Shown here: positions 36,130 to 39,545 of the stretch, piece by piece
Numbering within the stretch: position 1 is the first letter of the stretch
Layout: each line of letters opens with the position of its first letter
Origin: Eubacteriales bacterium
GTDB lineage: Bacteria > Bacillota > Clostridia > Lachnospirales > Lachnospiraceae
Direction of reading: 5' to 3'
Assembly (NCBI GenBank): GCA_030524225.1
Contig: JAUNGV010000005.1
Span: 17,082-62,430, forward strand
Length of the DNA stretch: 45,349 bases
Program-made: the position numbers and the translations under genes
The notes under the pieces: model-generated
What the model was told of the DNA's origin: nothing
Databases searched by the model: none
What the model saw: the letters and a program-made list of their open reading frames with translations, nothing else

Positions 36130-37185
36130 ATGTTAGTTAGTATTATTGCGTTTCTCGTTATTTTCAGTGTGATCGTGATCTCCCACGAATTCGGACATTA
36201 TGCAATTGCAAGGCGCAACGGTATCCGGGTGACGGAGTTCGACATCGGAATGGGACCGACGCTGTTTCACTGGCAGCGGGGCGAAACGGAATTCTGTATC
36301 AAGGCGCTGCCGATCGGCGGAGCGTGTCTCTTTGACGGGATGAACGGACTGGAGCAGGAGAAGGGAGATCTGGATGAGCACGCTTTCCCCAACGCGCCGG
36401 TCTGGGGAAGGATTGCGACCGTGTTCGCGGGGCCGTTTGCCAATTTTATTCTGGGCTTTCTCTTCGCAGTGATTATCGTGGCGTTTGCGGGGACGGATCT
36501 GCCGGTGGTGCAGCAGATCATGCCGGATTCCGCAGCACAGGAGGCGGGACTGCAGGCGGGCGATACGATCACACGGATCAACGGGGAAAGTATCCATCTG
36601 TACCGGGAAGTCAGCCTGATCTCAGCGATGAATTACGGTGAGCCGCTCACGATCACCTATGAGCGCAGCGGAGAAAAAAGTACGGTGACGGTGACGCCGA
36701 AGTACGATGAGGCCAGCGGAAGATATTATATCGGTCTGCTGGGATCGGGCGAGTATTTGAAGTGCAATGCCCTTCAGGTATTCCAGTACGGCTTCTATGA
36801 GGCGGAGTACTGGGTGAAGGCGACGGTCAAGTCGCTCGGCACGATTTTCACAGGACATTTCTCCAAAGATGACCTCTCAGGACCGGTCGGCGTCGTCAAA
36901 ATTGTGGACGACACATACGATCAGGCCAAGCAGTACGGAATCGAGACGGTTCTGCTCTCCTTCCTGAATATCGCGACCCTGCTCTCGATCAATCTGGGCA
37001 TCGTCAACCTCCTGCCCCTCCCCGCACTGGACGGCGGCAGACTGGTCTTCCTGCTCATAGAAGCCATCCGAGGCAAACCCATCCCCCCGGACAAAGAAGG
37101 CATGGTCCACCTGGCAGGAATCATAGCGCTGTTCGCGCTGATGATATTTGTATTGTTTAATGATATATCAAAATATTTCAGGTAG
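36130..37185 (+). CDS. rseP: RIP metalloprotease RseP (site-2 protease)
   Basis: 351 residues from ATG 36130. The first span holds the zinc-binding H-E-F-G-H, followed by G-I-R-V-T-E-F-D-I-G-M-G-P. A single PDZ domain (about 115-205, with A-G-L-Q-A-G-D-T-I-T-R-I-N-G) and the C-terminal N-L-L-P-L-P-A-L-D-G-G-R motif complete the site. It is an intramembrane protease that cleaves anti-sigma factors and leftover signal peptides. It ends the pyrH-to-rseP run and is followed by an exceptionally long terminator. Confidence 0.95.
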   Translation: MLVSIIAFLVIFSVIVISHEFGHYAIARRNGIRVTEFDIGMGPTLFHWQRGETEFCIKALPIGGACLFDGMNGLEQEKGDLDEHAFPNAPVWGRIATVFAGPFANFILGFLFAVIIVAFAGTDLPVVQQIMPDSAAQEAGLQAGDTITRINGESIHLYREVSLISAMNYGEPLTITYERSGEKSTVTVTPKYDEASGRYYIGLLGSGEYLKCNALQVFQYGFYEAEYWVKATVKSLGTIFTGHFSKDDLSGPVGVVKIVDDTYDQAKQYGIETVLLSFLNIATLLSINLGIVNLLPLPALDGGRLVFLLIEAIRGKPIPPDKEGMVHLAGIIALFALMIFVLFNDISKYFR

Positions 37186-37199
37186 CATTGAGCAGTGCG

Positions 37200-37271
37200 C
37201 AGAGACAGAAAAGCAGAAGGCAGTCCGGAAGAGTTCACTCTTCCGGACTGCCTTCTGTTTTTCTGTCTCTG
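37200..37271. terminator. 34-bp stem terminator after rseP
   Basis: Arms 37200-37233 and 37238-37271 are complementary at every position (one G-U), with a 4-nt TTCA loop. It is far longer than normal terminators and its T-run lies inside the 3' arm. It cuts the otherwise conserved rseP-ispG linkage. Confidence 0.8.
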
Positions 37272-37272
37272 C

Positions 37273-37376
37273 ATACGGCGAAAGCCGTGAAGCGAGAAAA
37301 TGCGAAGCGTTTTCGAGCGTGCACTGCGGGGTAGTGAGAGTTATAGATGGCTCGGTATACGGCGAAAGCCGTGAAG
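37273..37376 (+). repeat. Two copies of a GNRA-loop hairpin unit
   Basis: ATACGGCGAAAGCCGTGAAG occurs at 37273-37292 and again at 37357-37376, 84 bp apart. Each contains the ACGGC-GAAA-GCCGT hairpin. Between them lies a GAAAATGC/GCGTTTTC hairpin near 37297-37315. No gene is supported here. Confidence 0.7.
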
Positions 37377-37383
37377 ATTTTGA

Positions 37384-37411
37384 TTGCTTTTTTAACTGGA
37401 GAGAATATAAT
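37384..37411 (+). promoter_or_regulatory. Promoter of the structured RNA
   Basis: TTGCTT (37384-37389), 16-bp spacer, perfect TATAAT (37406-37411). Transcription would start near 37418. Confidence 0.65.
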
Positions 37412-37417
37412 GAAAGC

Positions 37418-37671
37418 AGGAACAGCAATGTTCCCGATGTAAGAGCATCGTTAAAAGTTGGGCTGCAGGTGGAGCAGGTTAAATTTCCATCGCGTTAGAT
37501 GTCTTACTGGGCATCGAGCCTGGCAGTTTGGAAAAAGCTGTAGTCCACGTGGAGGACTTAATGATTTCCACGCCGTTGTGGGTATCTTTACTGGATACCG
37601 AGGCTGACAACCAGCAGAAAACTCTTGTATCATGATTCTCAGGGGAGTGTGGTCTTCACACTCCCCTCTTT
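37418..37671 (+). ncRNA. Candidate structured non-coding RNA, possibly raiA-motif class
   Basis: About 250 nt between a promoter and an intrinsic terminator, without a convincing ORF. Hairpins seen: GGAAC/GTTCC (37419-37434), CGATG/CATCG (37435-37450), AGTCC/GGACT (37542-37558). Two homologous subdomains lie at about 37484-37535 and 37565-37615. Each begins TTTCCA, then CG-CGTT, then a hairpin with ACTG in its loop (GATGTC/GGCATC; GGTATC/GATACC), then CGAGCCTGGCA or CGAGGCTGACA. It is not tmRNA, SRP RNA, RNase P or a riboswitch that I recognise. Size and clostridial host would suit the raiA-motif RNA, but I could not check the consensus. It could instead act as a leader of the next gene. Confidence 0.65.
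37642..37671 (+). terminator. Terminator of the structured RNA, upstream of PBECR4-like gene
   Basis: GGGGAGTGTG (37642-37651), loop GTCTT, CACACTCCCC (37657-37666), then TCTTT. It ends 17 nt before ATG 37689, leaving no room for a separate promoter of that gene. Confidence 0.85.
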
Positions 37672-37688
37672 GTATATATGGAGGCAGA

Positions 37689-38312
37689 ATGGCAACAAAA
37701 ACAGAAAAGAAAAACACAATCAGACAGGAAATTATAGAGTCTGCAGGCGTATATAGCCGAAGACTGGCAGGCAAAACTTTTCTGTTTGTGTATGGAGATG
37801 AATTTTTTGAAGTGGCTTTTCCGATAGATCATTTTCTTCATCTGACGGGAGTGGAGACGAAATTATCACCTAAGGATTTTTACAGGAATGCAAAGAGAGG
37901 CTTGCTTACAACTGCTCAGTTTTACTTTAGCGCGAGACATTCCTATGCGAATGCAAAAAGAAAATTACCTTGCCTGAAACGTCTGCCTGAACTGACTGAT
38001 CGTGTGGTATGCATTCTCAAAAATATGCAGACAGTAACAATTATTTATAAAATAAGTGTTACGAATCTAGAATTTACCCTAGGACTGACAGAAAATACGG
38101 ACTTTTATGGGAATAGGGTAAATGAATATTTCCTGCCAATGTCCCTGCGTGTGGAAGATTCTTCTGTGGAAAAAAGTGCCGGTGGAGAGGTTGTTGATTT
38201 TATATTTGAAAGAGATGCCAGTAAAATGAAATATGATGTGATGCTGGTGAATGATAAGGATAAGATTCCTGAAAGAATCAAATGCTTGATTAGCGACAGC
38301 TTTTTTAAATAA
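37689..38312 (+). CDS. PBECR4-like nuclease-fold protein
   Basis: 207 residues from ATG 37689 with GGAGG 6 nt upstream; a longer frame from 37632 runs through the terminator stem. The core (G-K-T-F-L-F-V-Y-G-D-E-F-F-E-V-A-F, H-F-L-H-L-T-G-V, K-D-F-Y-R-N-A, R-H-S-Y-A-N-A-K-R-K-L, T-N-L-E-F-T-L-G-L-T-E-N, Y-F-L-P-M-S-L-R-V-E-D) resembles the PBECR4 domain, predicted to share the Barnase/EndoU/ColicinE5/RelE fold and often found in phage or polymorphic-toxin settings. No activity is established to my knowledge. The gene is clearly AT-richer than its neighbours with different codon use, suggesting transfer. It appears to depend on read-through from the RNA upstream. No immunity gene was seen. Confidence 0.75.
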   Translation: MATKTEKKNTIRQEIIESAGVYSRRLAGKTFLFVYGDEFFEVAFPIDHFLHLTGVETKLSPKDFYRNAKRGLLTTAQFYFSARHSYANAKRKLPCLKRLPELTDRVVCILKNMQTVTIIYKISVTNLEFTLGLTENTDFYGNRVNEYFLPMSLRVEDSSVEKSAGGEVVDFIFERDASKMKYDVMLVNDKDKIPERIKCLISDSFFK

Positions 38313-38489: not shown

Positions 38490-39545
38490 ATGACGAAGCG
38501 AGACCACACGAAGGTGATTCAGATCGGCAACCGCAGGATCGGCGGGGGGAATCCCGTGCTGATCCAGTCCATGACGAATACGCCGACGGAGGATGTCGGG
38601 CGCACGGTGGCGCAGATCCTCGCGCTCGAGCAGGCCGGATGCGAGATTATCCGCTGTACGGTGCCGAATGAGAAGGCGGCGAAGGCGCTTGCCGAGATCA
38701 AGAAACAGATTCATATTCCGCTCGTTGCGGACATTCATTTTGATTACAAAATGGCGATTGCGGCGATTGAGAACGGCGCGGATAAAATCCGGATCAATCC
38801 CGGAAATATCGGAGGTCCGGAGAAGATCGCGGCTGTCGTTTCGGCGGCGAAGGAGCGAGGCATTCCGATCCGCGTCGGCGTCAACAGCGGATCCCTCGAG
38901 AAGGAGCTGGTTGAGAAATACCACGGCGTGACGCCGGAGGGGCTCGTGGAGAGCGCGCTCGATAAGGTGGGAATGATCGAGGCCTGCGGATACGACCGCA
39001 TGGTCATCAGCATCAAATCCTCGAATGTCATGAACTGTATCCGGGCGCACGAGATTCTGGCGGAGAAGACGGACTATCCTCTGCATGTCGGTATTACGGA
39101 GGCGGGGACGGTGATGAGCGGCAGTATCAAATCCTCTGTCGGTCTGGGCGTCATTCTCTATGAGGGAATCGGGGATACGATCCGCGTCTCTCTGACAGGG
39201 GATCCTCTCGAGGAGATCAAGGCGGCGAAACTCATCCTGCGCACGCTCGGACTGCGGAAGGGCGGCGTGGAAGTTGTCTCCTGTCCGACCTGCGGGAGGA
39301 CGAAAATTGACCTGATCGGTCTGGCGAACCGGGTGGAAACTCTGGTGCAGGGATACCCGCTCGACATCACCGTGGCGGTCATGGGCTGTGCGGTCAACGG
39401 ACCCGGCGAAGCGAAAGAGGCGGATATCGGCGTCGCGGGCGGCGTCGGAGAAGGACTTCTGATCAAACACGGAGAGGTCGTCAAAAAGGTGAAAGAGGAC
39501 GAACTTCTCGATGCGCTGAAAGAAGAACTGGATCACTGGGCATAG
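38490..39545 (+). CDS. ispG: 4-hydroxy-3-methylbut-2-enyl diphosphate synthase (flavodoxin)
   Basis: 351 residues from ATG 38490, with AGGAGAAGGAG upstream; a longer frame from 38385 covers the leader hairpin and is rejected. P-V-L-I-Q-S-M-T-N-T, the TIM-barrel strands (P-L-V-A-D-I-H-F-D) and the iron-sulfur ligands in S-C-P-T-C-G-R and M-G-C-A-V-N-G-P-G-E are complete. IspG reduces the cyclic diphosphate to HMBPP late in the MEP pathway, using a 4Fe-4S cluster. It lacks the extra central domain of plant enzymes, as usual for Firmicutes. It is 52 bp from polC and probably cotranscribed. Confidence 0.96.
   Translation: MTKRDHTKVIQIGNRRIGGGNPVLIQSMTNTPTEDVGRTVAQILALEQAGCEIIRCTVPNEKAAKALAEIKKQIHIPLVADIHFDYKMAIAAIENGADKIRINPGNIGGPEKIAAVVSAAKERGIPIRVGVNSGSLEKELVEKYHGVTPEGLVESALDKVGMIEACGYDRMVISIKSSNVMNCIRAHEILAEKTDYPLHVGITEAGTVMSGSIKSSVGLGVILYEGIGDTIRVSLTGDPLEEIKAAKLILRTLGLRKGGVEVVSCPTCGRTKIDLIGLANRVETLVQGYPLDITVAVMGCAVNGPGEAKEADIGVAGGVGEGLLIKHGEVVKKVKEDELLDALKEELDHWA

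Follow-up and report, generated by a model that had tools for sequence, protein, structure and literature searches.

A tandem-pseudoknot RNA upstream of a PBECR4-family gene: a probable type III-like toxin-antitoxin module

The stretch of DNA analysed here (the window; 45,349 nucleotides of contig JAUNGV010000005.1, from a Eubacteriales bacterium of the Lachnospiraceae) carries, between a predicted promoter and an intrinsic terminator (37384-37675), a structured RNA of about 200 nt, which lies directly before a gene for a PBECR4-family protein starting at 37689. We propose that the RNA acts as antitoxin and PBECR4 as toxin in a type III-like toxin-antitoxin module of the abortive-infection type, a reading that we consider probable on the basis of the sequence comparisons described below. 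The term refers to a type III-like way of working; membership of type III is not claimed, because the toxin has no relationship to ToxN by sequence. The parts of the RNA-gene pair and both flanking genes lie on the forward (+) strand.

An earlier note on this DNA had described a promoter, a heavily structured RNA, an intrinsic terminator before the next start codon and a PBECR4-like gene downstream, and the present analysis bears out all four. The predicted promoter is of the sigma-A type (37384-37411), read from the sequence as TTGCTT (37384-37389) and TATAAT (37406-37411) with a spacer of 16; TTGATT at 37380-37385, with a spacer of 20 to the same TATAAT, is an alternative -35. A scan of species genomes gave eight relatives, of which seven (L002-L008) have the RNA directly upstream of the gene; in the eighth (L009) the gene is broken and barely more than the terminator remains, RNA and gene both being lost. 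At the position aligned to the putative promoter, all seven have a TTG-type -35, with TATAAT in six and TATACT in one. A sigma-70-like match within the RNA (37604-37633, 10/12) was set aside as an internal promoter; its -10 is not kept in relatives. The intrinsic terminator (37641-37675) has arms at 37641-37651 and 37657-37667 and the tail CTTTGTAT, and the terminator scan counts 12 pairs in its stem (37641-37667). The PBECR4 start codon at 37689 is 21 nt past the stem and is preceded by the ribosome-binding site GGAGG (37680-37684). Between the terminator and the start codon no room for a second promoter is seen, in agreement with the earlier remark that the gene probably depends on read-through.

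The RNA of the window folds with a minimum free energy of -94 kcal/mol (z -4.0), and none of 200 shuffles is equally good. Direct-repeat pieces recurring 80-81 nt apart (37453/37533 and 37483/37564) point to two tandem, diverged units of about 81 nt. The earlier note had seen twin subdomains here; the two homologous units stand, but not the boundaries, since 37484-37535 and 37565-37615 are only the second parts of the units. In the structure drawn from the sequence, a 5' leader hairpin P0 (37419-37434, with 37419-37423 pairing to 37430-37434) is followed by hairpin P1 (37435-37450), whose loop (37441-37445) pairs with the 3' tail (37622-37626) as helix T. Unit A (37453-37533) holds an H-type pseudoknot (37463-37466/37474-37477 with 37468-37473/37486-37491) and a hairpin HA (37498-37503/37510-37515). 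A linker helix C2 between the units has its 5' strand in unit A (37524-37529) and its 3' strand at 37535-37540. Unit B (37534-37617) has its own H-type pseudoknot (37543-37546/37554-37557 with 37548-37553/37567-37572), a hairpin HB (37581-37586/37594-37599) and a closing strand (37608-37611) that pairs with 37457-37460 at the start of unit A. Both tandem repeats have covariation behind them, as follows.

The earlier note had proposed a covariance check in homologues, and covariation is found in sets of 14 and of 23 RNAs. The first set, 14 RNAs of the window's own type (S1; alignment A5), was compared with the hand-drawn structure including its pseudoknots. Standard pairs occupy 96.0% of 718 cells, against 35-49% with slid partners, a comparison in which the pairing percentage is favoured by the structure having been drawn from the window sequence. 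Both sides change in 24 of the 52 pairs (shuffled mean 6.4, reached in 0 of 500). In the second test, 23 RNAs were aligned using a covariance model from which the three pseudoknot helices had been left out, so that the alignment was not fitted to them. Pairs form in 90.4% of the 375 cells of these helices (39-52% when slid), and both sides change in 14 of 17 pairs (shuffled 7.8, 0 of 500). Pseudoknot stem B2 is 97% paired in widely differing sequences of this set, and both sides change in 5/6 pairs; helix T, also absent from the aligning model, is 80% paired and both sides change in 5/5. For P0, compared among 12 sequences, the figures are 85% and 4/5. For the two tandem pseudoknots, none of the five measures was matched by any of 500 shuffles. 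Covariation in the S1-type RNAs therefore supports the tandem pseudoknots. The covariance model search left the S1-clade RNAs L015 and L041 unmatched, both having been supplied to it, and L041 was set aside from the MAFFT alignment A1 because it failed to align. An orphan S1-type RNA (L171, 1501-1714) carries an extra insert of about 12 nt in both units, similar in the two and at corresponding positions, which gives the impression of a joint change.

The gene downstream (37689-38312) encodes a 207-residue protein, predicted to be a BECR-fold RNase toxin. It matches Pfam PF18813 (PBECR4) with E 7.4e-28 and 98.6 bits against a cut-off of 27, and this is its sole Pfam match at E<=10. According to the account of Iyer et al. 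2017 (PMC5512222), PBECR RNases have an active-site pair of His and Ser/Thr. Among 71 PBECR4 members, His51 is conserved in all and Ser/Thr152 in 69. We infer that these two residues form the catalytic pair of Iyer et al., and catalysis is predicted because their conservation fits it. Homology to ToxN, to AbiQ or to defence models was sought by sequence (Pfam, a defence library and a profile search of PDB sequences) and none was found, the PDB-sequence search giving nothing significant. A literature search for PBECR4 by name found no paper; PMC9403866 deals with PBECR3.

The RNA and the gene stand between what we take to be a site-2 protease gene, rseP-like (36130-37185), and a gene that is presumably ispG-like (38490-39545). 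The C-terminal part of the rseP-like gene, which 38 of 41 genomes of the genus have (the window's own included), serves as a marker of the empty site. In 29/29 same-genus loci examined (29 of the 37 other genomes with the matching flank) the two flanks are next to each other, with a gap of 11-343 nt; the gap in the window is 1307 nt. The RNA-gene pair therefore has the look of a cassette that entered between core genes. Among the 21 same-genus genomes listed, one besides the window's own has a PBECR4 match. After the rseP-like gene there is a terminator hairpin at 37214-37257 (20 counted pairs, readable on both strands), which would insulate the cassette against transcription from upstream. 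Just upstream of the promoter is a 29-nt direct repeat (37264-37292 and 37348-37376, 90% identical, core ATACGGCGAAAGCCGTGAAG), of which there is one more, looser, copy elsewhere in the genome.

In 397 genomes of the bacterial family, the protein found matches in 25 and PF18813 in 72; a search of 195 relatives gave 7 with a match and one of 398 phylum genomes gave 4, the window's own genome being counted in each of these figures. The loci analysed from the PF18813 search were a selection from its matches (30 loci plus 40 further regions). A viral collection supplied one PBECR4 locus, and further loci were taken from plasmid records, PBECR4 being present in 1, 8 and 20 records in separate plasmid searches. 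One phage record has a PBECR4-like match and two other phage searches gave none. In that record (L180, Erysipelothrix phage phi1605) the match is longer than the annotated gene, and upstream of it are one S2-like unit (see below) and a terminator-like hairpin. Of 110 loci searched with a profile, 108 gave PBECR4 frames, as 103 distinct pieces. The counts below use the 71 genes that start near the profile start, encode at least 150 residues and have 150 nt or more of sequence before them, the remaining 32 pieces being left out.

The upstream regions of these 71 genes have features in common with the window. A terminator-like hairpin lies within about 100 nt before the start in 61/71 PBECR4 genes and in 21/157 control ORFs from the same loci, an approximate contrast, the start codons coming from a script and the control ORFs having been picked by length alone. 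A stricter scan, run without a control, gave 49/71; the permissive scan with its control was written after it because the strict one visibly missed hairpins. A simple finder of H-type pseudoknots averaged 0.99 in each region (0.18 after dinucleotide shuffling), with two or more in 25/71 regions and none in 27/71. By blastn, the regions fall into the groups S2 (16), drum (16), S1 (12) and S3 (6), then groups of 5, 3 and 2, with 11 singletons. Pseudoknots in S2, which has a loop of 5 for which the general finder is too strict, were counted with dedicated patterns in a set of 18 (the group of 16 plus two record loci). The 5' hairpin loop of S2 RNAs pairs 5/5 with the 3' tail in 15/18, compared with 64/360 when the tail letters are shuffled, and unit 1 has a short pseudoknot with 4/4 pairs in 14/18. 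Pattern (regex) searching for S3 units gave no match, and S3 pseudoknots rest on the general finder, which gives two each in L021, L027, L028 and L030 and one each in L031 and L126. The number of units varies, being three in L126 (by eye) and one in L107 and L013.

Among the intact genes of the S1 protein clade, the window included, all 14 have an RNA directly upstream, 12 being assigned by RNA sequence group and the remaining two (L015 and L041) by two pseudoknots each. Elsewhere in the family, a small plasmid of the gammaproteobacterium Avibacterium (L182) has two near-exact S2-like units, seen by eye, before PBECR4; L029 has no clear RNA upstream of its PBECR4 gene. On a plasmid of Ligilactobacillus salivarius (pCTN1046, L181), no RNA is visible and a gene for a hypothetical protein ends 4 nt before PBECR4; this is perhaps a version with a protein antitoxin.

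The RNA groups follow the clades of the PBECR4 proteins in the tree built from the 71 sequences. Here the seven RNA groups need 6 changes, which is the minimum, against a shuffled mean of 36.1 (0 of 200 shuffles as low); the tree is a quick one, and the 11 rows without an RNA group were not counted. For the drum group by itself the count is 2 changes, since the group of 5 nests inside it.

The Rfam class drum (RF02958) is said to have been first described in Weinberg et al. 2017 (224 candidate RNAs). Its model matches in 25 of the 72 PBECR4 loci scanned, on the strand of the gene and shortly before the PBECR4 match (0/20, 14/20, 6/20, 3/7 and 2/5 in the separate scan sets). It also matches part of the blastn group of 5 (L117, L123, L137) and the singleton L038. 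Conversely, in 200 genomes there are 18 drum places, of which 15 have PBECR4, or pieces of it, downstream; none was detected after the other three (L150, L151 and L156). Together, the two directions suggest that one branch of PBECR4 has drum as its RNA partner. Drum-PBECR4 pairs are also present on plasmids of Enterococcus (L178, a plasmid that carries a resistance gene's name) and Streptococcus suis (L179). A search of the literature on drum and RF02958 found no function and no PBECR4 link; the original description, which may remark on neighbours, lay outside that search.

The fate of the RNA and of the gene was followed by searching 358 family genomes with the S1 RNA model, which gave 15 matches, 14 of them credible; the other (L176) lies in apparent coding sequence and was dropped as false. 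Five of the 14, the window included, were known before the search and are followed by a PBECR4 open frame, in three cases of at least 200 residues and in two truncated or broken. Four keep only remnants of PBECR4, detected in L169 by profile (E 4e-4, about 1.1 kb on) and in L166, L170 and L173 by eye. Four more have no trace of PBECR4 in the sequence examined (L167, L171, L174 and L177), which for L171 is cut short by the end of the contig. The last (L175) precedes an Abi_2 gene (PF07751, E 1.4e-18) that begins about 90 nt after the terminator of the RNA. In this locus the RNA (1501-1684) and the gene (380-1366) are both on the minus strand, pseudoknot B is conserved and a terminator is present; toxin exchange is possible in this one case. 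Counting L006, in which the gene is frameshifted, there are twelve S1-type RNAs without an intact PBECR4, although faulty assembly may lie behind some broken genes. Asymmetric decay, in which the RNA outlasts the gene and not the reverse, is what would be expected if PBECR4 were harmful without the RNA.

On the basis of these observations, we suggest how the module would work. A single promoter would drive the RNA, and the terminator would stop most transcripts. The product, made in excess, would be a compact RNA in which two H-type pseudoknots stand in tandem and contact of the 5' loop with the 3' tail closes the structure. Occasional read-through would give the mRNA of the nuclease, so that read-through would set the ratio of RNA to toxin. 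The RNA would bind the PBECR4 protein, probably with one protein per pseudoknot unit, and cover the RNase site. If the level of the RNA dropped, for example when a phage shuts off transcription in its host, the RNase would be released to cleave RNA and growth would stop. We infer the read-through, binding, toxicity, RNase activity and defence role of the module; the first three are proposed because there is a precedent of the same layout in AbiF/RCd22 (described in PMC12373285). ToxIN/CptIN (PMC5086642) is a further experimental precedent for the layout.

AbiF/RCd22 of Clostridioides difficile is alike in having a two-motif RNA with its own promoter and a terminator before the toxin gene. According to PMC12373285, both short and read-through transcripts are made there, read-through co-transcription has been shown, and the RNA has been shown to bind and neutralise the protein. 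It differs in pairing an Abi_2 protein with the abiF-motif RNA (RF03085); the window has another protein family and another RNA, and the abiF-motif of Rfam 15 has no match in it. The type III systems (ToxIN, CptIN and TenpIN/AbiQ), as summarised in PMC5086642, have a similar order of promoter, tandem-repeat pseudoknot RNA, intrinsic terminator and endoribonuclease gene, and in the account of PMC8040213 the RNAs stand before the ToxN genes. Goeders et al. (PMC5086642) describe type III toxins and antitoxins as co-diverging, and PBECR4 and its RNA groups co-diverge likewise. Among the features by which type III is recognised, the locus has the terminator before the toxin gene, the tandem repeats and, by covariation, the pseudoknots in the repeats; homology to ToxN is not detected by sequence. 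The toxin is instead of the BECR class, and the S1 units are about 81 nt long, with an extra hairpin in each and the 5'-loop/3'-tail closure, whereas the type III repeats described in PMC12373285 are of 34-50 nt. A toxin other than ToxN has a parallel in AvcID, which the account in PMC10511110 calls type III and in which the RNA AvcI is the antitoxin for a dCMP/dCTP deaminase; there the toxin is not a nuclease, and no terminator is predicted between RNA and toxin. Drum RNA, like the RNA of the window, lies directly upstream of PBECR4 on the strand of the gene, but it differs in that the drum model has no match in the window, whose RNA forms a separate sequence group.

The earlier note had left a choice between a free-standing RNA, perhaps of the raiA-motif class, and a leader whose terminator gates the gene. 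As a cis-acting leader or attenuator, the RNA would sense a signal or the PBECR4 protein and switch read-through of the terminator, and would be inactive in trans. The terminator 21 nt before the start codon, with no other promoter seen between them, is what such a leader would have, and the close pairing of RNA and protein would also fit autoregulation through protein binding. We nevertheless regard this as unlikely. There is no candidate antiterminator: the longest complement to the 5' arm of the terminator is 8 nt, against an average of 7.6 for shuffled arms, and no run of at least 5 nt in the RNA pairs with the 3' arm. A switching leader is therefore less likely, pairing between the RNA and either terminator arm being nowhere clearly above chance. 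A plain leader also leaves unexplained the tandem pseudoknots and the persistence of S1 RNAs, pseudoknots included, without an intact gene. We know of no leaders with tandem pseudoknot units in varying number, as in the loci with three units or one.

A structured RNA with a function of its own, to which the nuclease gene is a passenger, would account for the promoter-like sequence and terminator belonging to the RNA and for the orphans (3/18 drum places and 4/14 S1 RNAs without a toxin remnant). The raiA suggestion fails, because no Rfam 15 family, raiA included, matches the window at its gathering score, and a search of 501 bases at E<=10 gave just two chance matches (a nematode snoRNA and a human lncRNA family). 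The RNA is moreover sporadic: 358 family genomes yielded 14 credible S1 RNAs, and PBECR4 itself has a match in one of the 21 other same-genus genomes listed. Four of the orphans retain PBECR4 remnants. A free-standing RNA unrelated to the gene is very improbable, because RNA group and PBECR4 clade match as closely as the tree permits. Close pairing, co-location and pseudoknots would be predicted equally well if the RNA were a guide or activating cofactor of the nuclease, in an effector complex, rather than its inhibitor. This we hold to be the least probable of the readings considered: no variable guide segment is seen, the S1 core being conserved in sequence, and the retention of the RNA after loss of the toxin, together with the finding that 0/14 intact S1-clade genes lack the RNA, better suits a neutraliser. 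An antitoxin RNA, separately terminated and acting on the downstream protein as in type III systems and AbiF, would unite both options of the earlier note.

We lean, with less assurance, towards a wider proposal. The RNAs across the family would have diverged past recognition by sequence and kept the plan of tandem pseudoknots and 5'-loop/3'-tail contact, so that PBECR4 and its RNA partners (S1, S2, S3, drum and others) would form one large, hitherto undescribed class of RNA-antitoxin modules, in which drum is an antitoxin and toxins of other families can adopt the RNAs, as with Abi_2 in L175.

If this is true, a partner and a function would be proposed for drum, an orphan Rfam class, and a role for the PBECR4 nuclease family, which in the account of PMC5512222 is only predicted. 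A toxin of the BECR class would join the RNA-controlled toxin-antitoxin modules, and PBECR4 and its RNAs would provide a clean case of RNA-protein co-divergence. Since PF18813 is found in 72 of 397 sampled family genomes, RNA-protein pairs of this kind would be common in these bacteria.
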